Virus record (IMG/VR): IMGVR_UViG_3300020442_000146
Location: 1 to 50,498 of that record
Reading direction: 5' to 3' (one strand)
DNA: 50,498 nt
Source of the DNA: a virus
Under the pieces are notes generated by a model, which did not search any database, was not told the origin of the DNA, and was given only the letters and a program-made list of their open reading frames with translations. This document shows, in pieces, positions 2,985 to 50,498 of the stretch (position 1 is the first letter of the stretch; every line of letters starts with the position of its first letter). The translations under genes were made by a program, and so were the position numbers.

Positions 2985-3221
2985 TTATTGTTTACGATCT
3001 AAAAGTGTCTCTGCCATTATAGCGGCGTCAAGTTCCACTTCGATCTTGGTTAATGCACGCAATATTGCGTGCGCCTCTTCGCGTTGCTCAATGTCTTGAG
3101 CGCCGCTAGTCGTAAAAAGCCTGATTTGCTCATTACGAACATCCTGTATGAAATCGCTAAAAGCGGTATCACTTTTTAACCGCTTTGCGTCTTCTGCCTT
3201 TATTCTTGTTTCTACTGTCAA
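2985..3221 (-). CDS. Small conserved protein between scaffold and portal (copy 1)
   Basis: A 78-aa helical, charged protein (MTVETRIKAEDAKRLKSDTA ... AETLLDRKQ). Its start overlaps the portal stop by 4 bp, suggesting translational coupling. It is highly conserved in copy 2 (39709-39945). Its position suggests head assembly; no family recognised. Confidence 0.8.
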   Translation of the reverse strand: MTVETRIKAEDAKRLKSDTAFSDFIQDVRNEQIRLFTTSGAQDIEQREEAHAILRALTKIEVELDAAIMAETLLDRKQ

Positions 3222-5317: not shown

Positions 5318-5318
5318 T

Positions 5319-12068: not shown

Positions 12069-12725
12069 TTATGTCTTCATAATGTAAGCCAAAGCATAGT
12101 ATGGCGGTCTGTTTTCGTGAGAGCTACCACTACCAGTGGAGCCAGTTGTTTTACTAAGAGATCCATTTGGGTTGTAAGTATTTGAGTTATAGTCAATATC
12201 AATACCAGCAGATGGAAAAGCACTCTGTAAAACATAACTATCTGTATAGCTGTGTGTGTGAGATGGTATCTGACTGGTTGTCAATGTTACGCTATCTGCA
12301 CCGCCAGTGTCGCCAACATTATAAGTTCCTGAACTATCGGCGTCTGCATGTACAACAAATTTAGCTGTTAAGTTAGGTGTTCCATTTGTACCATCACATA
12401 AAGCCCAACCAGTAGGTATTGTTGCGACTGTACCGCTCCATAAAATTATACCGCCAACAGGAAATAATAATGATGAGGACGTTTGACCTGCTAAGAGGTT
12501 TATTTCTGTTGCCGTTGCTGTAACGCCATCCATAATGTTTAGCTCAGCCGCCGTTGATGTAACCGCAGCGCCGCCAATCTTCCAAGAGCCAGCCGTTAGA
12601 TCTGGCTCTATTGTGCCGCTCGTTCCGTTTACAGCGTCCGTTATTGTATCTAAAGCCGTGTTGAGCGTTGTACCCCAAGTATTCTCGCTCGATCCCACGA
12701 CTGGCTTGGTAACTGAGATTGCCAT
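12069..12725 (-). CDS. Tail collar-domain protein (copy 1)
   Basis: A 218-aa protein. Residues ~1-90 are an Ala/Thr-rich fibre shaft (AAELNIMDGVTATATEINLL, a common fibre repeat). Residues ~92-218 are a phage tail collar domain: GGIILWSGTVATIPTGWALC, DGTNGTPNL, one HTH pattern (PSHTHSY) and the terminal HENRPPYYALAYIMKT. In this fold the His pairs can bind metal in a trimer. Copy 2 has several more GGAHTHT blocks. Confidence 0.85.
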   Translation of the reverse strand: MAISVTKPVVGSSENTWGTTLNTALDTITDAVNGTSGTIEPDLTAGSWKIGGAAVTSTAAELNIMDGVTATATEINLLAGQTSSSLLFPVGGIILWSGTVATIPTGWALCDGTNGTPNLTAKFVVHADADSSGTYNVGDTGGADSVTLTTSQIPSHTHSYTDSYVLQSAFPSAGIDIDYNSNTYNPNGSLSKTTGSTGSGSSHENRPPYYALAYIMKT

Positions 12726-23522: not shown

Positions 23523-24003
23523 GCTCAACAACCTTCATCTTGCGCAAAGCATCTAAATGCAAATCACCAATGTTAATATTAATCTGCTGCTGGTTGCGCC
23601 CACCATACTTCTCAGGGTTCCAATTAGACGCCGCTAAATTGTGCTGACCAACCTTTTGCTTGAGTAAACCCAAGTCAACCTGACTAACGTTAGCCTCACT
23701 AATGTCACGATCCCCATTCAAGGCTTCCATAATCTCGCGCTGCCTGCGCTCACTAACCTCAGAGATAACCTCAAAGCCAGCCTCAAAATGAGCATCAGCC
23801 GCCGCACGCCTAGCCTCGTCTATCGCAGCCGTTAACTCAGGATCACGCAAAATCATATTACGCAAAGAGCCAGCATGAACATCCAAATCTTTCGCTAAAC
23901 TAGAAATAGAGTTACCTTCTAACACCCACTCACGAAGATACTCACCGCCACCCCTGCGCTTAATCTCAGCAAGCGTTCTTTTTACCATCGGCCTACCAGC
24001 CAT
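23515..24003 (-). CDS. terS: Terminase small subunit
   Basis: A 162-aa protein. Start chosen at MAGRPMVKRTLAEIKRRGGG with GAGGTG 5 bases upstream, though an in-frame ATG lies 12 bases earlier. Residues ~5-65 form a helix-turn-helix-like DNA-recognition domain (GNSISSLAKDLDVHAGSLRN), followed by a coiled coil. Binds the packaging site and delivers DNA to TerL. It heads the late operon. Confidence 0.82.
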   Translation of the reverse strand: MAGRPMVKRTLAEIKRRGGGEYLREWVLEGNSISSLAKDLDVHAGSLRNMILRDPELTAAIDEARRAAADAHFEAGFEVISEVSERRQREIMEALNGDRDISEANVSQVDLGLLKQKVGQHNLAASNWNPEKYGGRNQQQININIGDLHLDALRKMKVVEHE

Positions 24004-27112: not shown

Positions 27113-29002
27113 CTAAAACGCTTCCTTTGCTCTGCCGTCTTTATCAGTAAACCAGATTTTACCCTCATTTATGGCAATATGACCGCCGCCTAGCAGCCCA
27201 TCCACAGCCTGCTTATATGTTTGTGAAGGATTAGCCACGCCAGCCAACTTACCTTTAAAGTGATCTTTGATTGTTTCTTCATCTATGCACCAATACTTGC
27301 CGCCTGAAGGCCACCCTGCGCCGCTTGGGTTTGGCTTACCTATGTCTTCGCCGCGCAACTGGTAGAACACCTCTTTAAACAGCTTTTGATTTTTGCCAGT
27401 TATGCGAGACTTGATGTTTTCTTCCATTTCTTCTGGTGTCGCTTCACGAATAACGCATGTTGTAACCTGATCGCCGTCTGCGTCTTCTCCAAGCTCAATC
27501 ACTTGCAGAATAAAATTTATTTCTGCGCCTGTTTCTATGTCACGTTGTTTTGTGGCTCTTGCGGTTCTAATGCGCGTTTCATCGTCGAATGAAAGCTCAA
27601 TTTCAGTATCGCAGGCGGCGCGTAAAGAGCTTGCTCCACGAGCGCCGCGAGATGTGTCTTTGCCTGAGTGGTGAACAAGCATAATGTGAATACCTGTTTT
27701 TTCTCTAATTAGGTCTAATCCTGCAATTAGTTTTGACATTGCTGAGTTGTCATTTTCGTCCATGTTACCCAGAGCCGTAGCCCTGGATAGTGTGTCAATC
27801 ACCATCATAGACACTTGCCCACGTTTTTTACTGATTTCTTTGATGATAGCTTCGACTTTTGCAATGTCTTCTTCAGCATCATATAGATTGATTGGGCTTG
27901 GTCTGACCGCTAGATCAACGTCTGTATAATCTGGATATTTTTCTCGCAGTGCTACTAGTCTATTTTGAAACGCTGCGCCGCCTTCAGTAGCGAGATATAG
28001 CACGCTACCTTTGTTGATTCTATTGCCCATCCATTCCCTGCCTGCGGCTATGTGATAAGCTAAACTCATGCAGAAAAAAGATTTACCTACGTTAGATGGC
28101 CCAAACACCACGCTAATTGAGTTTTCTGCAAGCCAACCTTTAGCAATGTATTTGTTATCTAATTGCGGCTTGGCTTGATCTGGAAAGATAACTTCGTCTA
28201 ATAGATTGCGCGGCTTGAGTGCTTTACGAGTAAACTCGATGCCACGAGCAAGCCAGACATCATTCCAGTCATAGCCTTCTGTGTCTGGCAGTATGCTTTC
28301 AACGCCATGATCTGTAAAAGCTTTTTGACATGCTGCCCTGCCTGCTTCGTCGTTATCGCCTGCAATAATGAGTGTGACTTCTGGTTTAACTTCTTTTATT
28401 TCTTGAATAACGTTTGTGATATTGCTTGCGTTGAGTGCGTGAATAACGGGTTTACCTGTTGCTTCTGTGCATACGCAAGCATTTGCCCAACCTTCAGTTA
28501 TGTAGGCAAAGTCTTTAATTGGCCCATTTACGACTGAAAAACAGCCTTTGTATTGCAGACCAAAATTGAATTTTTTCCCGCCGTCTTCATCAATAAACTG
28601 GCTGCCTTGCCTTTTGCCTGTTTTGTCTATGATGGGTATGACTAAATCACCTTCATCTATTTCTGCGTTATGTTGTTTGATTTTTTTTCGCGTTAGATAT
28701 GGGTGAAGCTCTTCCTGTTCTGGAAAGTGTACCACTGTTGTTGCCTCTGTTTTGTCTGGGTAAATTTTCATATCTCTAAGTATTTCTATTATTCTTTTCC
28801 AATCACCGCATTTTCTGCAATTAACCTTAAGTAACCCTTGGTACTCACTAATCCAAAACCGATCAACACCGCCGCAGTTTGGGCAAGCTCCTTTATGCTC
28901 GTTGCCATGTCGTTTTAAATTAAGTGAGCTTATGACTTGCGGCGCGTACTCACTATATATGGGGTCTGGATACTTGCCTTTATCAATACTTTGCGTTACC
29001 AT
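27113..29002 (-). CDS. Primase-helicase (replicative)
   Basis: A 629-aa protein. Zinc-ribbon primase end: C40PNC43 and C62RKC65. TOPRIM-like region: ITEGWANA (E170) and IIAGDNDEAGR (D216, D218). C-terminal RecA-type (RepA/AAA_25) helicase: Walker A GPSNVGKS (301-308), Walker B MMVIDTLS (D403) and LVHHSGKD near 450. The fusion makes primers and unwinds DNA, as in T7 gp4-like or plasmid RepA-like systems. It acts with the neighbouring SSB and nucleases. Confidence 0.88.
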   Translation of the reverse strand: MVTQSIDKGKYPDPIYSEYAPQVISSLNLKRHGNEHKGACPNCGGVDRFWISEYQGLLKVNCRKCGDWKRIIEILRDMKIYPDKTEATTVVHFPEQEELHPYLTRKKIKQHNAEIDEGDLVIPIIDKTGKRQGSQFIDEDGGKKFNFGLQYKGCFSVVNGPIKDFAYITEGWANACVCTEATGKPVIHALNASNITNVIQEIKEVKPEVTLIIAGDNDEAGRAACQKAFTDHGVESILPDTEGYDWNDVWLARGIEFTRKALKPRNLLDEVIFPDQAKPQLDNKYIAKGWLAENSISVVFGPSNVGKSFFCMSLAYHIAAGREWMGNRINKGSVLYLATEGGAAFQNRLVALREKYPDYTDVDLAVRPSPINLYDAEEDIAKVEAIIKEISKKRGQVSMMVIDTLSRATALGNMDENDNSAMSKLIAGLDLIREKTGIHIMLVHHSGKDTSRGARGASSLRAACDTEIELSFDDETRIRTARATKQRDIETGAEINFILQVIELGEDADGDQVTTCVIREATPEEMEENIKSRITGKNQKLFKEVFYQLRGEDIGKPNPSGAGWPSGGKYWCIDEETIKDHFKGKLAGVANPSQTYKQAVDGLLGGGHIAINEGKIWFTDKDGRAKEAF

Positions 29003-32169: not shown

Positions 32170-32184
32170 ATTTGGTCAAGGTTA

Positions 32185-32572: not shown

Positions 32573-32592
32573 AAATTAAAAGGAGTAAAATT

Positions 32593-33090: not shown

Positions 33091-33104
33091 ATAGGTATTA
33101 TGTA

Positions 33105-33804: not shown

Positions 33805-33887
33805 CAAAAACTTATTATGAGAGCAGGAAAAGTATAACGCTAAAGGCTTCCTCTGCAAACATAATAACATATTAGAAAGTACAGGCA

Positions 33888-34557: not shown

Positions 34558-34761
34558 ATGGATTATTATACCCTATTAACCATATTCTACACAGTCGCTG
34601 AACATGAGGTACATTTAAGAATTTGGTTTACAAGTGAAGACGATTGTTGGCGTGTATTATTAGAGAGCGGATTGTACGAAGAAGTAAAAGCAACATCAGG
34701 TCATTGTGACGTAAGCGAGGTCGTGTCACGAATAGTTAAACCAAAACTTAGGCCGTGGTAA
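34558..34761 (+). CDS. Small protein, 67 aa, convergent with the endolysin
   Basis: MDYYTLLTIFYTVAEHEVHL RIWFTSEDDCWRVLLESGLY. The last gene of the early block. Its end overlaps the endolysin end (opposite strand) by 14 bp, so the two transcripts can interfere. Function unknown. Confidence 0.6.
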   Translation: MDYYTLLTIFYTVAEHEVHLRIWFTSEDDCWRVLLESGLYEEVKATSGHCDVSEVVSRIVKPKLRPW

Positions 34762-35377
34762 GCCACTCGTAAATCTTTTTAGTTTGTTCTATACGATCCT
34801 TTAGACCATGCGTGCCGCCATTTACACGCTTGGTCACAGCTTTAATCGTATCATCATCAATGCCTTTATCACATATAGTAAACAGCTTGTTAGACCTGAA
34901 GAACCACAAAGCCGACTCAAAGGCATACTCAGTTTCAACAAAGCTTGGATGCTGCATAACTTCTGGTAAGCGCATATCACTGCTAAATGATCTATAGTTA
35001 GATCGTCCTGTTAGCTGGATAAAACCTTTTCCTGCAAACTTAAAACCATCGCCAGACGCTTCATCACCATTACCCATACGATCACTATAAACATTGTTTG
35101 CTAGTGCCTCTGGGTTTTTAGTGTATGGCTGTGCAGCTTCTACAGATTTAAATCGGCTAGGCCACACAGCCATCAGTCGTTCAGGGGTGCTATAATACAA
35201 ACCCTCTTTGGTGCGCTTGAAGCCACCACTTTCATGGTGAGCTTGCCCTAGCAAGTGCGCCCCTCTTTTATCTGATAGTTCGTAATGCTTTGCAATAGCT
35301 CTAGCTGTGTTAGGGCCAAATGATCCGTCAGCCGTTACACCACATCGAGCTTGTAATATCTTTAATGCGTCACTCAT
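34748..35377 (-). CDS. Endolysin, glycoside hydrolase 19 family
   Basis: A 209-aa protein. Residues 1-32 look like a peptidoglycan-binding-type element (LQARCGVTADGSFGPNTARA); the rest is GH19 (chitinase-like lysozyme): GQAHHESGGFKRTKEGLYYS with E49, GNGDEASGDGFKFAGKGFIQ LTGRSNY and the WFFRSNKL region. Cleaves peptidoglycan at the end of infection. No signal peptide, so it needs the adjacent holin for release; both are in the late lysis operon. Confidence 0.88.
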   Translation of the reverse strand: MSDALKILQARCGVTADGSFGPNTARAIAKHYELSDKRGAHLLGQAHHESGGFKRTKEGLYYSTPERLMAVWPSRFKSVEAAQPYTKNPEALANNVYSDRMGNGDEASGDGFKFAGKGFIQLTGRSNYRSFSSDMRLPEVMQHPSFVETEYAFESALWFFRSNKLFTICDKGIDDDTIKAVTKRVNGGTHGLKDRIEQTKKIYEWLTTA

Positions 35378-36735: not shown

Positions 36736-37137
36736 CTACATTCCATCGTTTTTAGTAAACTGTAAGGTTTTTTCTATCACGGCTATGCGTGATTGTAGCT
36801 TAATGATCTCCATCATATGAGCAGCCATGCCGCCCAAATCTTCGTTGATCATCTCAACATCTTCCCAAAGCTCATCGTCAGCCTCTTCCATATCGTCATA
36901 GAACTCTGCAAGAATGTCTATTATTTCTTGTAAATCCTCTTGGTTTTTCTGCACATCCCTAATTAAATTAGTTCTGTCAGTTGCATTATTCTCAATAGTA
37001 AGAACATTTACCTGCTCTGTTAGGCTTTCAATAACAGAAGCTTGCTGAGAGGCATACCATATGCCACCGCCCACGGTACTGACTATCGCCACTACTGCAC
37101 TTGCAGCAACAGCTATATTTACCTTGGGCAAGTCCAC
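36736..37137 (-). CDS. Membrane-anchored coiled-coil protein (copy 2)
   Basis: A 133-aa complete copy of the gene cut at the window start. One TM near residues 8-28 and an acidic coiled coil after it. The start here is GTG (ATG in copy 1). Ends 2 bases before the 151-aa gene. It spans the 36740-36816 junction without disruption. Spanin-like role inferred. Confidence 0.75.
   Translation of the reverse strand: MDLPKVNIAVAASAVVAIVSTVGGGIWYASQQASVIESLTEQVNVLTIENNATDRTNLIRDVQKNQEDLQEIIDILAEFYDDMEEADDELWEDVEMINEDLGGMAAHMMEIIKLQSRIAVIEKTLQFTKNDGM
36740..36816. repeat. 77-bp exact direct repeat, copy 2 (internal)
   Basis: This is the partner of bases 1-77. To its left is the lysis cassette and to its right the diverged second copy of the head and tail genes. 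Confidence 0.85.
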
Positions 37138-37138
37138 G

Positions 37139-37429
37139 CTAGTAACTACCTTCCCAAACCCTTAGTTTAGCAAACTCATTACTCATAAGTTTTCTTTTTA
37201 GCACTTCTTTAACTGCACCTGTATCTGACCAGCTAACGCCAGCCTCTTTTAGCCACACGCCAAGTAATGCCATATCGACATTACCAACGTGCTTATAATC
37301 AGAACCAAAGCTATTATCAGAATGTTGCCTTGCGTGTTCAACATCCTTCAGCATTTCGTTAGCGTCATGCGTTTTCTTGATGATTAATTTATCATCTTCA
37401 AACTTATATGACTCGCTAATCTTAGCCAT
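37139..37429 (-). CDS. Conserved phage protein (copy 2)
   Basis: A 96-aa protein beginning MAKISESYKFEDDKLIIKKT. Very similar to the gene at 400-702 from the middle to the end (GSDYKHVGNVDMALLGVWLK). The extra N-terminal residues of copy 1 (SHSTK) are absent. The frame is open upstream to 37465. Function unknown. Confidence 0.78.
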   Translation of the reverse strand: MAKISESYKFEDDKLIIKKTHDANEMLKDVEHARQHSDNSFGSDYKHVGNVDMALLGVWLKEAGVSWSDTGAVKEVLKRKLMSNEFAKLRVWEGSY

Positions 37430-37673
37430 CTTCCCAAGCCTCATTCTCTGGTGTGCTAGGATCATCAGCTTTTAGTGTGCCATCATCGTTTCTAGCACGC
37501 TTCTTTTTTGCTGTTTTCTTTGCAGGCTTTGGGTCTGCTTTTAATATTTCAAAAGCTGTGGGCTTTAACACCATAATCTTTTTTACTTCAGCTTCAGGCA
37601 AATCAACTTCATCACCGCCCTTAACGATACCTTTAGATGTTGAGATGCTTCTATCTTTTACTAATACCTTCAT
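37422..37673 (-). CDS. Small head-region protein with Lys-rich tail (copy 2)
   Basis: An 83-aa protein. MKVLVKDRSISTSKGIVKGG DEVDLPEAEVKKIMVLKP, then an acidic end (ENEAWEDG). The Lys-rich linker is three residues shorter than in copy 1. Overlaps the next gene by 8 bp, as in copy 1. Confidence 0.78.
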   Translation of the reverse strand: MKVLVKDRSISTSKGIVKGGDEVDLPEAEVKKIMVLKPTAFEILKADPKPAKKTAKKKRARNDDGTLKADDPSTPENEAWEDG

Positions 37674-37691
37674 TTCTTTCTCCTTTTAACA

Positions 37692-37713
37692 GTAGGGGCA
37701 AAACTGCCCCTAC
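37692..37713 (-). terminator. Hairpin downstream of the major capsid gene (copy 2)
   Basis: Same 9-bp stem and loop as at 973-994, 11 bases after the capsid stop. On the minus strand it is followed by TGTTAAAAGG. Conservation between diverged copies supports function. Confidence 0.6.
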
Positions 37714-37724
37714 CTAATATCTTA

Positions 37725-38681
37725 TTATGAAGTTGTGTTATCAGCAATGATGCCGTTTGCAGCTTCATTTTTAGCGCAAAGTGTAAGCTCAGTAACGATT
37801 TGTCTCTGAGTGTTATCACCAGTTTTTGCAAGCTCAGTGTTTTTAGTTGGACGTAGTGTCGCAACTTCCCACTTATCATCTTGCATGATGAAAACGTCAC
37901 GGCTTCTGTTCTCGCGGCTAGGCATGAACTCAATGGTTCCCCACGGAGTTGTGTACACTGCCAAGCTTTTGATAACACGCTCGTCAGATGCTTGCACTTG
38001 TGAACGCTGGTTGTTGTTACCAGTAAAGCCGAGTGCCACGTTCATTTGAAACGCAGACAGATACACAGTGTCAGGCTCCCCACCGTTCTCCCAAATTGAT
38101 TGCATAACTGTGTCAAATTTGGTTTGTGAAAACGCTGTTGGAGTACCATCGTCTGTTCGAGCGTCAGTGCCGTCACCAGTTGGATTTGCACCAGAGTTAC
38201 CTGATTGAAAATCAACATTTGTTTTAATCCAAGACGGTGCGCCTGCCAACTCTCTAGCAGTCGATGCGTTACCAGCCACTTTTGCATTATTGTCAAATAG
38301 CGCTTTCTCTATATCGAGTTTTTGCTCTTTGGCAATTTTTACAATTTGGTAGGCCATCTCACGCTGTCTTCCAGCCTTGTTAAGACCTTCGTCAGTGTCA
38401 GATACGATTACCGCATTTTTGAAGATTTGTGTTCGGTTGTTAAGACGAACAGTTGCAACAGCCGCTTGAGCAGTAGTTGCGTCACCTTCAATATGTGCGT
38501 TTGCAGCACTGTTACGAAGTGTATCAGTCTGCCATTCTACCAATGTATTATTGGCTGTTGTTTTACCACACTTAGAAAAAAATGGTGTGGCCTCTGGAGT
38601 AATATTAGTAATAATATCGCTCAAGTCTTCTCTGATACCTACCTGATCATAGCTATCAAAGGTATTTGCTGGTTGTGCCAT
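37725..38681 (-). CDS. Major capsid protein, SU10/DUF5309 type (copy 2)
   Basis: A 318-aa protein, the same length as copy 1. Differences cluster in surface-like residues (PEATPFFSKCGKTTANNTLV vs PEETPFHTKSRKTTARNTLV) and the loop at 215-225, while the core and the C-terminus (NRSRDVFIMQDDKWEVATLR) are the same. Functionally equivalent capsid of a related strain. Confidence 0.88.
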   Translation of the reverse strand: MAQPANTFDSYDQVGIREDLSDIITNITPEATPFFSKCGKTTANNTLVEWQTDTLRNSAANAHIEGDATTAQAAVATVRLNNRTQIFKNAVIVSDTDEGLNKAGRQREMAYQIVKIAKEQKLDIEKALFDNNAKVAGNASTARELAGAPSWIKTNVDFQSGNSGANPTGDGTDARTDDGTPTAFSQTKFDTVMQSIWENGGEPDTVYLSAFQMNVALGFTGNNNQRSQVQASDERVIKSLAVYTTPWGTIEFMPSRENRSRDVFIMQDDKWEVATLRPTKNTELAKTGDNTQRQIVTELTLCAKNEAANGIIADNTTS

Positions 38682-38720
38682 TATCTTGTCCTTTCAACGG
38701 CTTATAGCATTTTGTTAATG

Positions 38721-39698
38721 CTAAGTTTTCATAATTAAGTCGATTGCATCTTCCATTCGACCTGTCTTTTGCAATTTTTGAAATTGCTTACGCTTTAGTG
38801 AGCCTTCTGGATCAGCTACTTTCTTAGCACCAGCTTTTACAACAGGTTTGGCTTTCTTGCTTTTAGCTTCTGCCTTTTTGCGATTTGCAACAATACGTCT
38901 AAACTTCATAGCATCGTTAGCCATTTGGATATAACGTGCATCGGCGGTGGCTGCGATCTCTTCATCACTAAAGCCATATTCTTTGGCGCTATTCATAAGT
39001 GACTGCCAGTGAGCTTGACTCTTTTCTGGATCAGCCAGTTCAGGAATTTTACCTCTGATTATTTCGCCTTGTTCTCTAACAAAAGCTTGGTGCTGCTCAT
39101 CAGCTTGCTGCTGTTGTTGTTGTTGTAGTTGTTGCATTTGCACTTGCTGCTGCTGGTAACTCTGCATATCAGCATCATATTTTGCCCTTTGCTCCATATA
39201 AGCAATGGGGTCACTCTCTGCCAGAGTATGATCTGGTAACTGAGGTTGTGACATAAAACCTTGCTGCTGTGCCTGATTGTACATCTGAGTTATCATTTGC
39301 TCACGTTGAGAGATTTCAGCAGCTTTTTGCTCAACTTGTTTTCGAGCTTCTGCCACTTCTTGAAACCTCTTGTTTATTGCGCTTTGACCTGAATAACTTT
39401 GCTTTAACTGGTCTATTGTTACCGTTTCTTCCTTGCCGTCAGACTTGACAGTGTAATACTCTGGCTCGACAGTTTCTTCTTCAATGTCAGTTGCTTCAAT
39501 ATCAGTATCTAATAATTCTTCATCAGATACCTCTAGCTCATCAAGCTCATCAGTTTCCTCAACTGCTTCCACTTCAACCTCTTCGACCTCTGGAGCTACA
39601 GTTGTTTCTTCCTCAACTTGATTAGTTTCGCCTGTTTGTTCTTGCGCTGGCGCTATGATTTGTTCAATCGCGCTTTCTATACTGTCAGTCGTTTGCAC
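38721..39698 (-). CDS. Putative scaffolding protein (copy 2)
   Basis: A 325-aa protein. The acidic first ~95 residues have diverged from copy 1; the Gln-rich coiled coil and the basic tail (NRKKAEAKSKKAKPVVKAGAKK) are conserved. Ends RMEDAIDLIMKT. Scaffold role as in copy 1. Confidence 0.75.
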   Translation of the reverse strand: MQTTDSIESAIEQIIAPAQEQTGETNQVEEETTVAPEVEEVEVEAVEETDELDELEVSDEELLDTDIEATDIEEETVEPEYYTVKSDGKEETVTIDQLKQSYSGQSAINKRFQEVAEARKQVEQKAAEISQREQMITQMYNQAQQQGFMSQPQLPDHTLAESDPIAYMEQRAKYDADMQSYQQQQVQMQQLQQQQQQQADEQHQAFVREQGEIIRGKIPELADPEKSQAHWQSLMNSAKEYGFSDEEIAATADARYIQMANDAMKFRRIVANRKKAEAKSKKAKPVVKAGAKKVADPEGSLKRKQFQKLQKTGRMEDAIDLIMKT

Positions 39699-39708
39699 GG
39701 TACTGCTC

Positions 39709-39945
39709 CTATTGTTTACGATCTAATAATGTCTCTGCCGCAATAGCGGCGTCAAGCTGCACTTCGATCTTGTTTAATGCACGCAAAATAGCGTGCGCCT
39801 CTTCACGTTGCTCAACGTCTTGAACACCGCTAGTCGTAAAAAGCCTAATTTGCTCATTACGAACATCCTCAACAAACTGCTTAAAAGCAGTATCGTTTTT
39901 TAACCTTTTGGCATCTTCTGCCTGTATTCTTATTTCTGTTGTCAT
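39709..39945 (-). CDS. Small conserved protein between scaffold and portal (copy 2)
   Basis: A 78-aa protein, MTTEIRIQAEDAKRLKNDTA ... ETLLDRKQ. About 85% identical to copy 1 by eye. Overlaps the portal stop by 4 bp. Function unknown. Confidence 0.8.
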   Translation of the reverse strand: MTTEIRIQAEDAKRLKNDTAFKQFVEDVRNEQIRLFTTSGVQDVEQREEAHAILRALNKIEVQLDAAIAAETLLDRKQ

Positions 39946-42044
39946 AAGCCTGCTGCTTTAGCGGTCATATCGTTTATTTGCCGCTCTCTTTCTTGCTCTG
40001 CTTTAATTCTAGCTACATCAACCGTTGAGCCATATTGACCTAACGTCCTAGCTGCATCAACATATAAATTTTGTGCCATTTGATCTCTTTTTAGATCATC
40101 CTCCATAGCCATCTCTTCACGCTTTCTAGCATCATCCATCTGCGCTTTTTGCATATCAACTTGCGCTTTAGTTTGAGCCTTCATTGCTTCAGCCTGCACC
40201 ATCATTGACGCTGGGTCTTGCCCCTGACCCTGCTGAGCTAACATAGCTTGTTGCTGTTGCTGCATCTGCAAGAGTTGCATTTCTATCTCTGGTGTAATTG
40301 GTGCAAAGTAACGATCTGCGTTTCTAATACCGCTAGAGGCTAATATATCTGCAAGAGTGTTACGAATGTTTGTAAGAGATACTAAACCATTCATAGGGCC
40401 ATATGTTTGATAAACCATAGTTTGTTGTTGTAGAGCCATAGCTAAAGCATTTGTCTTCTCTTCCTCTCTACCAGTGCCAAGCCCTACATTAATGCTAATA
40501 TCCATATCTATGTCAAAAGCTTTTGGATCAACAGGCTGGAAGCGTCCATTCATACGCATCATAGCTCCGTCTTCCATATTCTTTTGCAGCAATCTTAGCA
40601 TTAAGCCAAACAAGTCTCTTGCACCGTCAGCTAAGTTTCGCACCATCACTTCTACCTGACCTGCTGCGGCCTGCACAGTAGCCTGTACAGCAGCTTTAGT
40701 TGTAGACTGCATAGCATCAGGGTCTAGCCCCATAGAGGCCTTAGTTACGCCTGTCTTGCCTTCTACAAGCTGATCTAGGTACGTTAATGCGCTTAGTGTC
40801 TGTCCAGCAGTAAATGGCACAGCTAAATCTTGCACTGCGCCAGCCTGACGCATACGAACAATAGCACCTATTTCGTTGTTTAGAACATCATCTATATTTA
40901 CTGCACCATCAACTATACCAACTCTAGGATTGTTAGTCATAGCTACGTTATCTAGTATGCCTCTTAAAATAGAGGTTGCTGCGTCCTGATCATCTAAAAC
41001 TAAATCGGCAATACTTCTGCCATAGAATGTGTGGGGTTCAGGGTCTACTTCAAATTTTGCAAAAGGTAATTCGTCTGCTAACTCATAATCTAGCAGCTTG
41101 TACTTCGTTCCACCGCATAGAAACCTATGCAACACAGCAACCCCTGTTCCGTCTATGTCCATCCTCATGTAAGCCTCAGTCACAGTAACTTGCTTCATAG
41201 ATGGATCAGAGCTTGTTTCACTAAAGTTATCTTCATAGCCTTGACGCTCATAACGCTCTGCTTCAGTCATTTCTGAACCTGCATCAAAGCTATCCAACTT
41301 TAAAACATCATCAGGATCATATCCCATAGATATAAGGTCACTAGCTCTCATCTCTGACCTATGAACAACAACATGGGCGTCTTCTAATGTCCTACAGTTT
41401 CTATCTACAAAAAACTCCTCTGGCGGTACGCTTTCTATTTTTAAGCAACCAGCATATGCCTTTCTAGAAACCTTTGCAGAATGAACAGGCGTTTTCATTT
41501 CAGCGCCATCTTCATCTATACTCATCTCCTGCTCGACAGTATGCTCTAAAACAGTTACATCATCGTCCTGCACTAAAAATGTGTACTCATCATCGGATAG
41601 ATTCGTGTAAGTATAAATCTCTGCTTCTGGCATTTCTTCCCAATAAGCTTTGACTATACCCTGTTTTTTAATTAGCGCATCGTGAAATGCATCGTTCAAC
41701 ACCCTATAACCATTGCTACGCTGAAACTCATAATGAACGTAATCAGTCGCCTGCTCTGCCATTGCCACATCTTCAGGGCCATGCGGCATAAACTCAACTG
41801 GTCTTGCAGTGCTTAGAAACACACGCATCAATGAAGGTTTAATAGCGCGAACCGTATCCCTAACTTTAGTAGCAACTACTTTACTGCGCCCATCTTCATA
41901 GCCTATATCTACCTCGCCATCATAATAGCGCTGAGCAACTATTCTATCTTCAGATATTTCACTCTCAACAAAATCTACTGCATCATCTATAGCGTTCTGA
42001 ACAATAGTTTCTATTTCGCGTTCTGTTTTAGCTTTTAGTTCCAT
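39942..42044 (-). CDS. Portal protein, P22-like (copy 2)
   Basis: A 700-aa protein. Nearly identical through the body; differences in the wing (EEMKTPVHSAKVSRKAYAGC vs VEVQTPVHSAKVSRRETTGR) and in the C-terminal barrel. The start MELKAKTERE also supports the start chosen in copy 1. Confidence 0.88.
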   Translation of the reverse strand: MELKAKTEREIETIVQNAIDDAVDFVESEISEDRIVAQRYYDGEVDIGYEDGRSKVVATKVRDTVRAIKPSLMRVFLSTARPVEFMPHGPEDVAMAEQATDYVHYEFQRSNGYRVLNDAFHDALIKKQGIVKAYWEEMPEAEIYTYTNLSDDEYTFLVQDDDVTVLEHTVEQEMSIDEDGAEMKTPVHSAKVSRKAYAGCLKIESVPPEEFFVDRNCRTLEDAHVVVHRSEMRASDLISMGYDPDDVLKLDSFDAGSEMTEAERYERQGYEDNFSETSSDPSMKQVTVTEAYMRMDIDGTGVAVLHRFLCGGTKYKLLDYELADELPFAKFEVDPEPHTFYGRSIADLVLDDQDAATSILRGILDNVAMTNNPRVGIVDGAVNIDDVLNNEIGAIVRMRQAGAVQDLAVPFTAGQTLSALTYLDQLVEGKTGVTKASMGLDPDAMQSTTKAAVQATVQAAAGQVEVMVRNLADGARDLFGLMLRLLQKNMEDGAMMRMNGRFQPVDPKAFDIDMDISINVGLGTGREEEKTNALAMALQQQTMVYQTYGPMNGLVSLTNIRNTLADILASSGIRNADRYFAPITPEIEMQLLQMQQQQQAMLAQQGQGQDPASMMVQAEAMKAQTKAQVDMQKAQMDDARKREEMAMEDDLKRDQMAQNLYVDAARTLGQYGSTVDVARIKAEQERERQINDMTAKAAGL

Positions 42045-44693
42045 CTATTGCTCCTGTAGTGTTGCCGAAGCTCCAACCAAGTAAGGCGCTATGCTTCTTT
42101 CTATTCTTGCAAAGTTTTTAGGGTTTTTAACATCTAAAAGTAAACTTTTAAATAACTCTTCATCCTCGACCGCACGCATCATTAGTTGTTCAGCTTTATT
42201 TGTTGTTAATCTGCTTAATAAAGCTTTCATTCTTTCTGAAAGAATTTGAGCAGTTTGCAAGCTTCCTCCTGCACTTCCACCACCCATAGCGCCACCTTGT
42301 CGCGCTGCATATATTCTACCGACAATTTCTACAAGTTTGTTTGTTGGGAATGGACTAATTGCGCCTTTTGTAGAACGCCCCACTCTTGCTAAATCTAATT
42401 TTTTTACTTCTTTTGTAATTAAATTTAATCTATTTAGTTCTGCACTTGTATAAACCTGATTAGCTACAGACTTAAATGTTTCATCATTAAGTTGGCTTTC
42501 TAATCTAGTTCCCCTTACTTGTGACGCAGGCAAATCTACATTAGCTGCAACTTGTGGTGTATCTATAGAATTGTTTAAAACTCTTTGAGACAATGCGGAT
42601 TTTATTCCATTTAAAGCCTGACCTGTCGTATCTTTCTTTGCAGTCCTAACTAGGTTAGCCATCTCTATTTGCGGATTTTGAGAATTAAAAATGTTATCTA
42701 AAGCTTGTCTTGTATTTGATTGAGAAAATCTTGCTAAAGTACCAGCTTCTACATTTGCTACCAAGTTTTGCCCTGTTTGAGTAATATCTTCTATTTTTTG
42801 CTTAGTATTTAAAGCGTTCTCTACATCTGTTTTTATAGAAGCAAACTCTGGAGAGTCTAAAACTCTATTATATTTTTGTAAAAAATTATCAGCTTTGCTT
42901 TGATTAAATTTACCATTAGGAAAAACATCTTTATCAAACCTTACTCTTAAAAAGTTTGTTATAGCTCCTATACCTTCATCTCTACCAGCTTCAGAAACTT
43001 CATCGCCAGACAGAGCAGCTTTAAAATCTTTAGTTGATAATAAATTCTCTACATCACTACTTTTAGTTAAGGATTTCTCCAAAGTAAGCTCATCTCTTAC
43101 ATTCGGATCACCTGTTGCTTTTTTAGCAAGCAAACTTCCCACAGTTCCACGAGAAAATTTATCGTGATATATTCTAGTAAAGTCTCTAGCTTCAGCTATT
43201 GCCCTTCCAACATCAGTGGCTAAATCAACATTATTTAAATCTTCTAAAATGTCATTAGCTATTTCATTAGCCAATCTAGCCATATTGCTGTTTGGGGTTG
43301 CGCCAGATGAAGCATCTCTAGACCTTGATCTAAGTTTAGAATATAAATCAAGTAAATCTTTAACTTTTATATCTTTGTTCTTTTTCGCATATTTTTTACG
43401 AAATTGATTAATTTCTGGCGGCATATCTGCTTTAGAAAATTCACCTAAATTTTTCTTTTGAGTAATAACAGCCTGATTAGTTAACGGTGAGCTTATTGTT
43501 TGATTTTTTGGAATACGATTCCACAGTCTATTTCTTTCTACTCTTGCAGCATTTTTAGCTCTTAAAAGCTCTGCGCTTAGTATAACGCTAGACTGCATAT
43601 CATCTGCACCCTCATCTGCTATTTTAGTCGTTGCAGATTGTTGTGCAGCCTTTACATATTGATTAACCCTGTCAGTAAATGCTTTTACTCTTTGCGCCAT
43701 AAAAGCTTGAGTGTCTTGCACATTTCCTTCAGGAGTAAATTCTTTTCTAGCAATTTCATCTGACTCTGCCCTTCTAGCTTCAATTCTTTCTCTTACTAGA
43801 GGGTCTCTTTCCATCGCTTCACGCTCAACCCTTGCAAAATATTCTTCACCTGTTTTTTGCATTGGAGTTAAGTTTAATGGGCTTTCTCCCATTCTGTTCT
43901 CAGCTATGTTTATGGCTGCTTGCCTACCCCCTGCGCCACGCACAAGCTCATCTGAAACAAGTCTTTCTGCACCTGCTTCAGTAAACGGCGCAAGAGCTTT
44001 TTTTGTTCCTTGATACGCATTTGCAATAGGTCTAGCCACATATGCAGCAGGTGGTAAATTTAAAGCAAGATCACCTACTTGCTTTGCCTGATCTACTACA
44101 ATCCTTCCCCCTGCTGGTAATACACCAGTAGCCATACCGCCTGTAAGAGCAGCAATATCTTGAACAGGTTTGCTATAACCTCTGTCAGCAGCCTCACCTT
44201 GAGCAACCCTACCGCCTCCACCAGCTAAAAGCTCTGCTAAAAATCCACTTTTAGTTGCCATCGTGGGATAAATTGTATCAGCAATAGCTCCTGTTATACC
44301 TTGTGCGCCCCTTAAAGCCTTTACACCAGCCGTAAATGGTAAAGCATATGATGCAGCCTCACCTATACCCTTGCCAGTTCTTTCACCAAGATTTTGAGCT
44401 TCGCCTTCTGCGACACTTATATTTGACATATCCATAAGGTTTTTAAGACCAGTTTCAGCCGAACCCGTGTATTGGTCAAATGGATTTATCAAATCCACCA
44501 TGCCACCTATATTCTCTGCAATCTCTTTATTAATTTGCCCCATAATATTACGAAAAGTAGATTTTTTAGGCTCAGCGCTTTCCTGACTATTTGCTAATCT
44601 ATTAGCAATTACAGCTAATTTTGCAGCGTCCTCTTTTCTTCCAGCCGCTTCTGCGTTTCTAAGAGCTTCTAGTGTTTGTTCTAATTGAGACAT
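42045..44693 (-). CDS. Putative internal virion / DNA-ejection protein, 882 aa
   Basis: It replaces the 541-aa gene of copy 1. MSQLEQTLEALRNAEAAGRK EDAAKLAVIANRL at the N-terminus, then hydrophobic Gly/Ala-rich parts (about 90-240: KGIGEAASYALPFTAGVKAL) and a long helical coiled-coil body. End QEQ as in copy 1, and the last base is next to the portal ATG. Long helical proteins with hydrophobic patches at this locus are expected to be ejected into the cell. Function inferred. Confidence 0.7.
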   Translation of the reverse strand: MSQLEQTLEALRNAEAAGRKEDAAKLAVIANRLANSQESAEPKKSTFRNIMGQINKEIAENIGGMVDLINPFDQYTGSAETGLKNLMDMSNISVAEGEAQNLGERTGKGIGEAASYALPFTAGVKALRGAQGITGAIADTIYPTMATKSGFLAELLAGGGGRVAQGEAADRGYSKPVQDIAALTGGMATGVLPAGGRIVVDQAKQVGDLALNLPPAAYVARPIANAYQGTKKALAPFTEAGAERLVSDELVRGAGGRQAAINIAENRMGESPLNLTPMQKTGEEYFARVEREAMERDPLVRERIEARRAESDEIARKEFTPEGNVQDTQAFMAQRVKAFTDRVNQYVKAAQQSATTKIADEGADDMQSSVILSAELLRAKNAARVERNRLWNRIPKNQTISSPLTNQAVITQKKNLGEFSKADMPPEINQFRKKYAKKNKDIKVKDLLDLYSKLRSRSRDASSGATPNSNMARLANEIANDILEDLNNVDLATDVGRAIAEARDFTRIYHDKFSRGTVGSLLAKKATGDPNVRDELTLEKSLTKSSDVENLLSTKDFKAALSGDEVSEAGRDEGIGAITNFLRVRFDKDVFPNGKFNQSKADNFLQKYNRVLDSPEFASIKTDVENALNTKQKIEDITQTGQNLVANVEAGTLARFSQSNTRQALDNIFNSQNPQIEMANLVRTAKKDTTGQALNGIKSALSQRVLNNSIDTPQVAANVDLPASQVRGTRLESQLNDETFKSVANQVYTSAELNRLNLITKEVKKLDLARVGRSTKGAISPFPTNKLVEIVGRIYAARQGGAMGGGSAGGSLQTAQILSERMKALLSRLTTNKAEQLMMRAVEDEELFKSLLLDVKNPKNFARIERSIAPYLVGASATLQEQ

Positions 44694-44704
44694 ATTAATA
44701 AACC

Positions 44705-46147
44705 TTAATCGGCTGTTGGAACAAATTGCGGTGTAGTTACGTTAAGCTTTTGCTCATTAGGCAAATTTCTATTAATTAAATTTATTTCATCTGAAGAAAG
44801 ATTTGGCGCTGATTGTATTGTTGCCCTACCCTGCAAAGATTTAAGAAGAGATTTGTAATCTTCTAAATATCGTTTTACTTTAGGTAACTCTTCTGTTGCT
44901 AAACTAATTGATTCAGGTTTTACTCTTGTTTTTCCACTAACAATGTTTTGGTAATGCATCACAGTATCCTCTAAAGCTTTAACCATAAGCTTTGATTTTT
45001 CTATGGCATCAGCAACACCAGTTCTAGTTGAGCTAGGATCAATAGTGTAGTTATCTAAAACCATTTGTCTGGTAAAGTTTGAAGGCCTTCCTTCAACTTC
45101 AACAGTAGCAGCAAGAACAGTATCAGCTTGTAGCTTTCTTAAAGCTGCATTTGCTTCACCAGCTTCATCAAAAATAAATTGTCCTGAAATAGCGTCTGAT
45201 ATTTTATTAACAATATTTTTACCAAAACCAGTAAGTCCTAACGCTTCTGTAGCATCCTTGCCAGCAAATGATCCATCTGACCCATCACCTGCTTTATCGC
45301 TTTGTATATTTAATTTTTCTTCTAAATCCTCAATATTGGCTGGTTTAAATTCAGTTCTTTCATTAGTAGCTATATTATATTTTTCAGCTATACCTGTAAC
45401 TGGATTAGGTACTATTTTAATTACACCATCAACTATACCTACGGCGTCAGCCCTAGATAAATTAAAATTCTTTTCTATTCTAGCAATTTCAGCTTCTTTT
45501 GCGCTTGGAGTAAGCGCAGCTTTTGCAGCATCTCTTTCCATACCGTATTGGTTTGAAAGACCTAAAAGTTTTTTCTTAAAATTAAAATTATAATCAGCTA
45601 AAAATGTTGCTTCCTCTAAACTTAATTGACTTTTGATTTTAGCAAGGTCTATTCCTAATGAATTTTGCAACTCCATTAACTTTACTCTATTGTCAAAATC
45701 AGCGCCTCTACTTAATTCCTGCCTTTGTCTTAATAATTCTTCCTGTTGCAGCATTTTTTTCAATTCAAATTGTTGATTTGCAAGATTTTGACTTGATGTA
45801 AAATCTCTTCCTGCGTCAGCTAATTGCATTTGCCTTTGAAACGCTAAATCAGCCGCAGAAGAAGCTCTAGCCGCAGCCCTTTGCTCACTTTCTATGTCAA
45901 ACATTAATTTGTAAGCATCAGCGCCTTTTAATTGACCTGTACCAACCATAGCAGCAAGCCTATTACCCATAGGCGTACCTAAACCTTTTAAATATTCAAC
46001 AGTTTTATTTTTTGCTCTGTTAGCTGTGCGCTGCTGCTGTATTGTTTGCAGCGCTTGATTAAGACCTCTATCAGGTTCAAATCTTAATGTATTAAATGCT
46101 CTTGCTGCTGCGCCTGCAAAGTCTCTAAAATCATAATCTTTAACCAT
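44705..46147 (-). CDS. Putative internal virion protein, 480 aa
   Basis: N-terminal ~95 residues are shared with the 373-aa copy 1 protein (RDFAGAAARAFNTLRFEPDR, QQQRTANRAKNKTVEYLKGL). The rest is longer, with a coiled coil at ~115-200 and a C-terminal domain unlike that of copy 1. It is probably an ejection or core protein with an exchanged C-terminus. Confidence 0.7.
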   Translation of the reverse strand: MVKDYDFRDFAGAAARAFNTLRFEPDRGLNQALQTIQQQRTANRAKNKTVEYLKGLGTPMGNRLAAMVGTGQLKGADAYKLMFDIESEQRAAARASSAADLAFQRQMQLADAGRDFTSSQNLANQQFELKKMLQQEELLRQRQELSRGADFDNRVKLMELQNSLGIDLAKIKSQLSLEEATFLADYNFNFKKKLLGLSNQYGMERDAAKAALTPSAKEAEIARIEKNFNLSRADAVGIVDGVIKIVPNPVTGIAEKYNIATNERTEFKPANIEDLEEKLNIQSDKAGDGSDGSFAGKDATEALGLTGFGKNIVNKISDAISGQFIFDEAGEANAALRKLQADTVLAATVEVEGRPSNFTRQMVLDNYTIDPSSTRTGVADAIEKSKLMVKALEDTVMHYQNIVSGKTRVKPESISLATEELPKVKRYLEDYKSLLKSLQGRATIQSAPNLSSDEINLINRNLPNEQKLNVTTPQFVPTAD

Positions 46148-46155
46148 GTTTCACC

Positions 46156-46833
46156 TTAAAATGATGGCATACCAGTTGCAGCAGAAGCGGCTGCTGTTAA
46201 ATAATCCATAATACCTAATTGTCTTGTTTGTGTTTGCGTTGTTGGTACTGGTGACGCACCTAATGCAGCTAAAGGTAACTGTAGCTTATTCATTGGTGCG
46301 TTGGCATAGTTGTTGTATTGATTTCTAGCAGAATCAATTAGAGCTTGCATGGCTTGCTGCTGCATTTGCCCTTGACGCATTTGTTGATCACCTAAAGCTT
46401 GACCATAGTTAAAAGATTGTGCGCCCATCCCTGCTAACTGCCCAGCCGCACCTAACTGCCTGCCTAAATCTGCCTGAGATGCGCTTAATGCAGTATTAAA
46501 ACCTTGCTGTCTCATTCTGTTTGCTTGATCAAACATTTGCTGAGTGTAGTTTTTTGCCATCTCAGCTTCAGCTATTCCGTGCCTAGAGCCACCAAACGCA
46601 TTTGCCGCAGTTGCTTGTGCGCCTAGCATATTTTGTGCATTTAATGCCTGACTACCTACATCCCTAAGTGTTTGCTGAACAACTTGGTTTTCATATGGGT
46701 TTTGGTAATTTGCCATTCCTTGCGCAGCAGTTTCATTTAAACCTTGCGCCGTTCTTCCCATAGCACCCATTTGCGCCTGAGATGCTTGATTGTATGGATT
46801 TGCCGTCATTGCTGGGTTTGCTGCGCCTGCCAT
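46156..46833 (-). CDS. Ala/Gln-rich virion protein (copy 2)
   Basis: A 225-aa protein. MAGAANPAMTANPYNQASQA ... NPYENQVVQQTLRDVGSQAL NAQNMLGAQA ... AFGGSRHGIAEAEMAKNYTQ. Core shared with 8069-8701; the C-terminal ~50 residues differ. Probably an ejectosome component. Confidence 0.7.
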   Translation of the reverse strand: MAGAANPAMTANPYNQASQAQMGAMGRTAQGLNETAAQGMANYQNPYENQVVQQTLRDVGSQALNAQNMLGAQATAANAFGGSRHGIAEAEMAKNYTQQMFDQANRMRQQGFNTALSASQADLGRQLGAAGQLAGMGAQSFNYGQALGDQQMRQGQMQQQAMQALIDSARNQYNNYANAPMNKLQLPLAALGASPVPTTQTQTRQLGIMDYLTAAASAATGMPSF

Positions 46834-46834
46834 G

Positions 46835-47329
46835 TTACTTACCCCTTGCCATTGTGCTTCTTGATATAGGTTGCACCCCTATAGGTGAATTATTTGTATA
46901 GCCTGTTGGCGTAAAACTTTCTGCACTTCCCATTGGGGCAGCATTACTGCCTGCTTGACCTGTTTGTGGATTCATAAAAAATGTATCCATATATTGACTT
47001 TGCGCTGGTCTAAGTTGAGCTAAATTTTCTACAGATTGCTCATAAGTTGGCGCAGATGAGTACCCCATAACGCCGCCAGCAAACTCTGTTGCTTCAGGCA
47101 TATATTGACCAGCGCCGCTTTCCATTCCAAAAGCTGTGGCTGCATTTTGCGTGTTTTGAAACGCTGCATCCTGCATTGGCGTAAAAGCAGCTACATCAGG
47201 TCCGTAATAAGGTGTGTAACCTATATTAGATATTTTATCTGCAAGAGCTAAATTAGATTTAGCAGCATCCTCAATGTATGCTGGTATTTCTGTTTTTGTG
47301 GTTTTACCACCACCCTTATTACCGCTCAT
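46835..47329 (-). CDS. Virion-associated protein (copy 2)
   Basis: A 164-aa protein. MSGNKGGGKTTKTEIPAYIE ... GYTPYYGPDVAAFTPMQDAA. The start is chosen as in copy 1 because of the GGAG before MSGNKGG; the frame is open to 47374. The C-terminal third differs from copy 1. Structural role inferred. Confidence 0.7.
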   Translation of the reverse strand: MSGNKGGGKTTKTEIPAYIEDAAKSNLALADKISNIGYTPYYGPDVAAFTPMQDAAFQNTQNAATAFGMESGAGQYMPEATEFAGGVMGYSSAPTYEQSVENLAQLRPAQSQYMDTFFMNPQTGQAGSNAAPMGSAESFTPTGYTNNSPIGVQPISRSTMARGK

Positions 47330-47330
47330 C

Positions 47331-47705
47331 CTATATCTCCTTTTGAAATGAGGCGTGTAATGGTTTCCAGCCATGCGCCTTTAAAGGTTTCTTCCATCCA
47401 AAACGACCTGTAATCGTCAACGCCTCACACCCATAATGCTTTGCCCAACTTGTAACATCACTGTGCATATCTAACAACTGATCTAGCTCACCACCGCCTA
47501 AAAACACGTTTAGCACCTTTTTTCTAGGATATATCACAATTTCAGTAACAATGCACCCCCTTGGACTAGGCCATAATTGCATATTACCCTCAACAATACC
47601 TTTTGCCACATCCTTAAAATTATGCGTACCACCTGAATACTCTAAAGCCGCCTCAATCCAAGGGCGGCATCTTTCCAGTTCGTTAACTTGCGTATCTTTA
47701 GGCAT
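47331..47705 (-). CDS. Conserved phage protein, GNAT-like appearance (copy 2)
   Basis: A 124-aa protein, almost identical to copy 1 (MPKDTQVNELERCRPWIEAA; RGCIVTEIVIYPRKKVLNVF LGGGELDQLLDMH). High conservation across the diverged copies suggests a core role. The molecular role is unknown. Confidence 0.7.
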   Translation of the reverse strand: MPKDTQVNELERCRPWIEAALEYSGGTHNFKDVAKGIVEGNMQLWPSPRGCIVTEIVIYPRKKVLNVFLGGGELDQLLDMHSDVTSWAKHYGCEALTITGRFGWKKPLKAHGWKPLHASFQKEI

Positions 47706-48056
47706 TTACCATGTAGCTAGTGCTACCCTCTTCCAAATTGCACTACTTCCATCATAATCGGCAACACAAATATAAATATAATTTGTATCCCAAGCTATCA
47801 TTCCAGTTACATCGCCTACACTACCAGTGTTTGCACTAGGAGTAGGTTGTTTTGTTGCAAGCTGTCGAAAAGCATTATCGCTAGAAACAACTGCATATTT
47901 TTTAGTTTCATCCCACAATATAACGCCATTTTCTGATGGGTTATCGTCTGCGGATTTAAAATATAATTTACCTAAATTACGCTGCAAATAGTTAGTAAGT
48001 TGCCTACCCCATTGCGATAGGTCTTGGCTTATAACTGGCAAAATAGGAGCAGGCAT
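47706..48056 (-). CDS. Putative tail-tip/fibre protein, short version, 116 aa
   Basis: Residues 1-68 match the 219-aa copy 1 gene (LGKLYFKSADDNPSENGVIL). The C-terminal part is a different and short strand-rich module, GDVTGMIAWDTNYIYICVAD YDGSSAIWKRVALATW, a module common in phage fibres. So an exchanged tip on a constant base. Shares its first base with the 629-aa gene stop. Confidence 0.68.
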   Translation of the reverse strand: MPAPILPVISQDLSQWGRQLTNYLQRNLGKLYFKSADDNPSENGVILWDETKKYAVVSSDNAFRQLATKQPTPSANTGSVGDVTGMIAWDTNYIYICVADYDGSSAIWKRVALATW

Positions 48057-49945
48057 TAACGTGTACCCCCTATTGTAGCCTCAAGTCGCATAATACCTAC
48101 ACGCCAATCAGCAGGCCGCACACCTGTTACCCTCATGCGAACTTGCCTGCCACTAAACCTAGCATCTGTTGGGTTAGCAGGCGTAAATGGGCCATGTGAT
48201 GTTTCTGTATCGTTAGGATGATACCTTGTTTTGAAGGTCATGCTTACATCACCTTGTGTAACCTCATCAGGTATAACTGACGTAACGTACATAATGTTTT
48301 CACCAGTACCAGCCGATACTGGCCCTGTTTCTGCAAAGATTGCACCGTTATCTACGTTATAGCCAACCTCATGCTCTTTTATATTAGCGTGTGTCGTATC
48401 CCAATCAGCCATCATAGGATACCTAAACACGCCACGTTGAACGCCAGACGTTCTTGATAGCTCACCAATCATCCAATGATTTTCATTGTAATCATAGGCA
48501 ACATAACGGTCTATTTCTATGCTGTTAGATGATGGGTAAAACCACCACACTTCGCCATATTGCGGTATGCCCATCGCCCATATTTTGGTTTGCTGAGAAG
48601 TATTAATATCACCAAAGATATAATCATGAACATCGCATTTTATGGTTTGCACTGTGTTACCATTGAACAAAAAGAAGTTTTCTTGCCCAATAAAAAACAC
48701 ACCTCGATCTGTGTCTACCGCTCCACGGCTCGTCACAGTGCCGCAGGAAGTGCCAACTCGCTCGAAGCCATAAACGTAGGGTGGCCCTTGATAACGCGCT
48801 GTGTGGGCGTCTACGTCAGTCAGAATAAGCGTTTGGCCTCTAGTTCTAACCGCTTGCATAATCTGCCCTGCGGTTTGTAACTCTATATCGCCTGCCTCGT
48901 TTGTTGCCGCAGGCGTCCATTGGTTTCGATCTTCTCTGTCACACCAAGATATTTTACGGCTATTACCACCAGAACCTAATGCAAAGATAAAACGCTCTTC
49001 AGTCACAACTAACCCAAGATTAGATAGTGGTGCATTTGTTATGGGTGTAGCTACTACAGCTAATTTAAGAGATGTTTCTGTAACGTTAACATTTTGCTCT
49101 GCATTAGTCGCAGGATAAATTTGTATTGTGACGCCAGTATCGTCTGTGTCAAATCTAAAAAAGCTATTACCAATAGGCAATGTCTTATCAAGTAAAACAG
49201 TCGTTGTTGTCGTGCCGATAATCTTAACTTTTAGTGACGGTATGGTTGTGGCGTCTGCATCTGCGTCAGGGTCAGTTACATTTATAGTAAAGTGATATTT
49301 CTTACCGCTTGTTAAGCCTGTTATAGCTTGCTCTAAGTTTGCAGCCGTTGTGCCTGTCCATTTAGCCTCACCGCCACTTATAGCCCAACCAGTGCCTAGC
49401 GTCCAATCTGTGCCTACGCTAAAGCTGTTGTTTGTTATTAGCTCTGAGCCGCTAACAATATTTAAATCCCACTCGACAAGTCTACCGTCATCATAATGGC
49501 AACCAACCATTAATTCGCCAAAGTTGTCTAATTGCCAAAATGTGGCAGGCTCTGGAATAGCGTTGGAAAGTTGCTGTCTTGGTGTACCCCAAAAACCTAC
49601 ACCATAAGCACCTTTACCAAATCCTGCGCTTACAGCCGCATCTATACGTCCAGTTGCTAAGTTATCTGGCGTAATGTCATAGCACAATCCACCGCCTGTC
49701 ATTGCAACTAATGAATTATGTGAACCGCCTGCTAACCATGTGCTTTGGTTAAGAGCTTCCCAAGCGTGCATACCTCTTATTGGCTGCAATGCAAAATCTT
49801 CTTTTCTGTTTTGCCAACCACCAATCGGACGCAATGAACCGTCTAGCCATCTAACTAAGCTACCCTCACGCCATCTGCCAGATTGCTCGTAGTCTGTTCC
49901 TATTCGGTAAAATCCAGATGGTATATCTAAAGGTACTAAAGTCAT
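48056..49945 (-). CDS. Conserved tail structural protein with inserted beta-sandwich (copy 2)
   Basis: A 629-aa protein, same length and most residues as copy 1. Differences are spread throughout and include the insert (~165-298) where GKKYHFTINVTDPDADADAT replaces GAKYHFTISVVDPDNDADPD. Core tail component. Start MTLVPLDIPSGFYRIG. Confidence 0.72.
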   Translation of the reverse strand: MTLVPLDIPSGFYRIGTDYEQSGRWREGSLVRWLDGSLRPIGGWQNRKEDFALQPIRGMHAWEALNQSTWLAGGSHNSLVAMTGGGLCYDITPDNLATGRIDAAVSAGFGKGAYGVGFWGTPRQQLSNAIPEPATFWQLDNFGELMVGCHYDDGRLVEWDLNIVSGSELITNNSFSVGTDWTLGTGWAISGGEAKWTGTTAANLEQAITGLTSGKKYHFTINVTDPDADADATTIPSLKVKIIGTTTTTVLLDKTLPIGNSFFRFDTDDTGVTIQIYPATNAEQNVNVTETSLKLAVVATPITNAPLSNLGLVVTEERFIFALGSGGNSRKISWCDREDRNQWTPAATNEAGDIELQTAGQIMQAVRTRGQTLILTDVDAHTARYQGPPYVYGFERVGTSCGTVTSRGAVDTDRGVFFIGQENFFLFNGNTVQTIKCDVHDYIFGDINTSQQTKIWAMGIPQYGEVWWFYPSSNSIEIDRYVAYDYNENHWMIGELSRTSGVQRGVFRYPMMADWDTTHANIKEHEVGYNVDNGAIFAETGPVSAGTGENIMYVTSVIPDEVTQGDVSMTFKTRYHPNDTETSHGPFTPANPTDARFSGRQVRMRVTGVRPADWRVGIMRLEATIGGTR

Positions 49946-49947
49946 GT

Positions 49948-50498
49948 TTACGTTTTCATAATATAAGCAAGTGCATAATAAGGTGGTCTGTTTTCGTGTG
50001 CGCCACCGCCGCCTGCGTTATCGACAGACAATGTGTGAGTATGTGCGCCGCCACTAGCAATGGTTACAGTGTGAGAGTGTGACCCTGCCGAAGATGTAGT
50101 GCCAGTTTGTGAGCCATTTGGATTATAAGTATTTGAATTGTAATCAATATCTATTCCCGGAACGAGAGCGCTTTGCAGGACATAACTATCAGTATAAGTA
50201 TGCGTGTGCGCTCCTGCACTGTTTGTCGTTCCAGTGTGCGTGTGTGCGCCGCCGCTTGCCGCCGTACCTGTGTGGCTGTGAGCAGGCAGTTCGCTAGTTG
50301 CTAGTGTCACATCATTTGCACCGCCTGTCGCACCTACTGCATACGTTCCGCTACTGTCTGAGTCGGCGTGAACAATAAATTTACCTGTTAAGTTAGGTGT
50401 GCCGTTTGTGCCATCGCATAATGCCCACCCTGTCGGTATCGTTGCAATCGTACCAGACCACATAATAATGCCCCCAGTAGGCATTGCCTTGTTAATAG
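49948..50498 (-). CDS. Tail collar-domain protein (copy 2, 5' end cut)
   Basis: The frame continues past the internal Met at 50484 to the window edge (INKAMPTGGIIMWSG), so the N-terminus is missing. The collar domain has five HTH-type units: GHSHTGTAASGGAHTHTG, AGAHTHTY, AGSHSHTV and SGGAHTHTL, then HENRPPYYALAYIMKT. Copy 1 has one such unit, so this strain has a longer metal-site ladder at the tip. Confidence 0.82.
   Translation of the reverse strand, partial: INKAMPTGGIIMWSGTIATIPTGWALCDGTNGTPNLTGKFIVHADSDSSGTYAVGATGGANDVTLATSELPAHSHTGTAASGGAHTHTGTTNSAGAHTHTYTDSYVLQSALVPGIDIDYNSNTYNPNGSQTGTTSSAGSHSHTVTIASGGAHTHTLSVDNAGGGGAHENRPPYYALAYIMKT

Follow-up and report, generated by a model that had tools for sequence, protein, structure and literature searches.

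Introduction

Terminal repeats of metagenomic contigs cluster at lengths of 55, 77 and 99 bp, a pattern ascribed to assembler k-mers on circular templates, and large duplicated regions in such contigs have been ascribed to assemblers that concatenate genome copies (CheckV; PMC8116208). Strain branches and mosaic unitigs have been described in phage assembly graphs (Phables; PMC10563150). In this study, the window was the entire IMG/VR record IMGVR_UViG_3300020442_000146 (50498 bases, classed as linear), which comes without further flanks and in which a viral head/tail gene module appears twice. We conclude, at a probability of about 0.94, that this apparent duplication is an ordinary assembly artefact, in which the circle of one phage strain (A) was followed by a fork into the structural module of a second strain (B).

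Results

Two diverged copies of a head/tail module

Self-BLAST placed 36740-50498 collinear with, and on the same strand as, 1 to ~12.5 kb, in blocks of 73–90% DNA identity, the longest of which has E=0 (Table 1). These matches bear out the initial annotation, which had described a second, diverged head/tail module of the same strand and order beginning at 36740, a coordinate that proved exact. The duplicated region makes up more than 20% of the contig. Both copies show the order of a P22-like short-tailed head module, with PHROG matches to portal, head scaffolding and major head proteins and weak matches to DNA ejection proteins.

Table 1 Features of the 50498-base window and self-BLAST blocks between its two module copies.
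Feature	Coordinates	Strand	Evidence or remark
One complete unit, putative strain A (~36.7 kb closed): lysis end, head, ejection, tail, terminase, early/replication, endolysin	1..36739		gene set; closure backed by G010
Exact 77-base word, branch word at contig start	1..77		= 36740-36816; first mismatch base 78
Spanin-like gene, copy A, cut just before stop by contig start	3..398	-	counterpart 36736-37137
Major head protein, copy A	1006..1962	-	phrog_1328 E=9e-84
Head scaffolding protein, copy A	1993..2973	-	phrog_3927
Portal protein, copy A	3218..5350	-	phrog_1216 E=6e-143
Large internal protein, copy A	5319..6944	-	25% aa identity to copy B counterpart
Ejection-protein-like, copy A	8069..8701	-	phrog_4287 E=3e-5
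629-aa virion structural protein, copy A	10177..12066	-	phrog_3287
Tail collar fibre-like protein, copy A	12069..12725	-	phrog_1800
Terminase large subunit, single copy	22116..23531	-	phrog_2
Primase-helicase, single copy	27113..29002	-	one occurrence in the contig
Endolysin, single copy	34748..35377	-	phrog_181
Partial second module, putative strain B, collinear with 1 to ~12.5 kb	36740..50498		self-BLAST; ended by contig end
Second occurrence of 77-base word, putative fork point	36740..36816		= bases 1-77
Major head protein, copy B	37725..38681	-	phrog_1328
Head scaffolding protein, copy B	38721..39698	-	phrog_3927
Portal protein, copy B	39942..42044	-	phrog_1216
Large internal protein, copy B (882 aa)	42045..44693	-	25% aa identity to copy A counterpart
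Ejection-protein-like, copy B	46156..46833	-	phrog_4287
629-aa virion structural protein, copy B	48056..49945	-	phrog_3287
Self-BLAST block	1-2544 vs 36740-39266	same strand	79.6%
Self-BLAST block	2905-5331 vs 39627-42057	same strand	81.8%
Self-BLAST block	7910-7972 vs 45990-46052	same strand	90%
Self-BLAST block	8383-8715 vs 46500-46847	same strand	73%
Self-BLAST block	9111-9525 vs 47293-47705	same strand	86.6%
Self-BLAST block	10029-12119 vs 47908-49998	same strand	78.0%
Self-BLAST block	12294-12425 vs 50314-50445	same strand	77.8%

The spanin-like proteins of the two copies are 97% identical in amino acid sequence (the one encoded at 36736-37137 weakly matches an Rz-like spanin, phrog_739, at E=6e-5), followed by the portal proteins at 89% (237 codons with synonymous-only changes against 80 replaced), the major head proteins at 86% (116 against 44), the 629-aa virion proteins at 84% and the scaffolds at 69%. 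Several internal-protein genes are swapped or strongly diverged: one pair of large internal proteins shares 25% identity (541 aa in copy A, 882 aa in copy B) and a second pair 32% (373 versus 480 aa). The earlier description of many synonymous changes combined with whole-gene swaps is therefore accurate for these genes. The internal protein at 5319-6944, used as a query, returned mostly short N-terminal matches in less related phages.

Open frames are kept in both copies and, because synonymous changes outnumber replacements in the conserved genes, both appear to derive from working genes. Such copies, each looking as if selected for function, are what would be expected if the head/tail module had truly been duplicated inside a single phage genome of at least 50 kb; the same synonymous-rich pattern is, however, also expected from two separate phages, and the relatives described below weigh against a duplication.

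Up to about base 400 the copies are 95% identical; there, at a gene boundary, identity drops abruptly to ~77%. With copies just ~77–80% identical beyond base 400, a simple terminal repeat is ruled out, as the initial annotation had held. Located at 396-402 versus 37137-37140, the drop looks like a recombination boundary that separates the lysis module from the head module.

An exact 77-base word and the closure of one unit

Bases 1-77 recur exactly at 36740-36816, forming the longest exact repeat of the contig and its only repeated 77-mer, while the remaining exact runs within the first 397 bases are 2–53 long. At the local divergence of 5–6%, a run of at least 77 has a probability of ~0.012, before demanding that it start at base 1 and have the length of a standard k. 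The contig thus carries the mark of a k-mer overrun, in which the contig opens with an exact word that is repeated after one unit, and divergence sets in immediately behind it. An exact search of other IMG/VR contigs did not find the word. The initial annotation mentions neither this exact word nor the step in identity near base 400.

The stretch from the first to the second occurrence of the word encodes one full phage gene set. Its replication genes comprise a primase-helicase, a single-strand annealing protein, a RecE-like exonuclease and a RusA-like resolvase; these genes, the terminase and the endolysin each occur once in the contig, and no second terminase was found in its 50498 bases. 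The terminase large subunit has 61% identity to the environmental phage record MW202879, and a megablast of 1-25000 against annotated phages gave no match. A C1q-domain protein (PF00386, E=4e-15) is encoded at 17440-17949 amid the tail-region genes and possibly provides a receptor-binding or virion-surface domain.

When the unit is closed from 36739 to 1, the spanin-like gene truncated at base 3 regains its stop. The closed junction also aligns without a break to a related contig, IMGVR_UViG_3300037961_000180 (G010/L017), over 2373 bases at 93.5% identity, whereas the deposited junction from 36739 to 36740 aligns clearly worse (84.7%).

Two related prophages in tandem in one host chromosome would place the copies on the same strand and in the same order, and would also yield a repeated 77-mer at the contig start. 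We nevertheless rejected this arrangement as very improbable: the contig has no recognised integrase, tRNA or host gene, either within the units or between them; the two copies meet where a lysis gene ends, inside the late operon, and not at an attachment site; and the relatives examined are all single-copy virus contigs. The counterpoint is a general one, in that any true tandem of A followed by B would likewise repeat a 77-mer and could start a contig there. Such a tandem would need a coincidence of single-copy relatives, closure of A, the lack of another terminase and a contig that begins precisely on the word.

Relatives carry one module and show similar overruns

The major head protein retrieved 193 relatives, of which 80 were kept and 27 records (14–39 kb) were examined for module count. 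No contig among the 80 is longer than 38944 bases, and the head module is single in 27 of 27. The two ends of the longest relative (G001, 38944 bases) adjoin each other in the terminase region, so that this contig is a nearly complete permuted circle with one head module. Single-copy relatives, which the initial annotation had proposed to seek, comprise these records and a circular Octadecabacter phage of 39,241 bp. In length, to which the initial annotation had appealed, the 36739 bp unit compares with ~35–39 kb in relatives.

The two copies have different closest relatives. G010 carries 26827-33889 (94.8%) and 1-5342 (96.5%) in circular order and is the contig closest to copy A, while copy B is closest to other relatives, among them L003 (~91%), L153 (91.6%), G008 and G019. 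For a genuine duplication in one genome, the split in relatives between copies (A with G010, B with L003 and L153) would be hard to explain, as would relatives that reach only 39 kb with one copy each; the start of the contig on an exact 77-base word would be a coincidence. We regard that reading as scarcely credible, and hold an equally low expectation that a phage genome exceeding 50 kb really exists here, with two diverged head/tail modules that could build alternative or mixed capsids.

Overruns are also present elsewhere in this group. In G020 (IMGVR_UViG_3300025083_000103, 36542 bases), an exact 119-base start word recurs at 35134 and then diverges, the whole overrun being 89% identical over 461 bases (L095 1-461 versus the end of L096, record 35134-35594), and the ends of G008 overlap by 184 bases at 94% identity. 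Together, these overlaps indicate that overrun into strain variants is recurrent among long contigs of these phages. The largest default word of SPAdes is 77 bases, and 119 is one of the word lengths of MEGAHIT.

In two relatives, L019 and L023, an A-like head module (90–91%) is joined to a B-like tail-side protein region (89–94%), as seen by comparison with window positions 400-5330, 37140-42057, 10029-12130 and 47908-50100. These mosaics imply that head and tail modules are exchanged in these phages. They also lend some plausibility to a molecule in which two strains were physically joined, as concatemer or recombinant, during a mixed infection and which was sequenced as such; concatemers are also expected intermediates in the replication of P22-like phages whose genomes are circularly permuted. 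Yet a recombinant of this kind, being rare, is unlikely to dominate the assembly of a metagenome, and it would not put the contig start on an exact word of k length; we consider such an origin most improbable.

Discussion

Assembly through a unit-length genome into a related strain, which the initial annotation had already preferred, is the reading on which the 77-base word, the single-copy relatives, the closure supplied by G010 and the overrun in G020 converge. The contig is almost certainly a chimera that arose in a de Bruijn assembly, for which the length of the word suggests k=77. Strain A would be a short-tailed phage whose ~36.7 kb genome, circular or circularly permuted, was assembled once round from 1 to 36739; on its return to the 77-base word, the path would have taken the other exit and run on into the head/tail module of strain B, a relative present in the same sample. 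The two would be separate genomes whose sequences immediately upstream of the fork, in the lysis region, are nearly identical. Judged from their sequences, A and B are likely mosaic relatives with a common lysis region and a differing structural module, a combination from which a fork of the assembly graph at exactly this place would be expected. The 12.7–36.7 kb stretch may be wholly of A or common to A and B.

The relevance of this assignment is chiefly one of database hygiene, as the record would combine a single circular genome (~36.7 kb) with 13.8 kb from a second strain, and 36739 is best taken as its last base. Diverged overruns escape completeness tests based on exact end repeats, and a search for the first k bases of a contig within itself finds them. 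A true tandem would mean that one phage has two sets of capsid genes, an idea that finds no support in this analysis.

Comparison with known systems

Over-length contigs of the type described with CheckV (PMC8116208) share with this record a length beyond one genome unit, a repeated word of exact k-mer length (77 being among those named) and a large duplication. They differ in that the overrun here appears to come from a diverged strain (~80% identity), such that checks of k-mer frequency aimed at identical repeats would scarcely register it, and a test for end repeats fails. Among cultured phages, Octadecabacter Antarctic DB virus 2 (MW805364), with a circular genome, has the same late-gene order (terminase, tail, portal, major capsid, lysozyme) and a capsid protein 62% identical to that of copy B, but has a single head module and early genes that are annotated differently. 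The environmental contig G010 matches unit A across head and replication regions (94.8–96.5%) with its lysis-to-head junction closed, and differs in its length of 33.4 kb, its one head module and its diverged tail genes.
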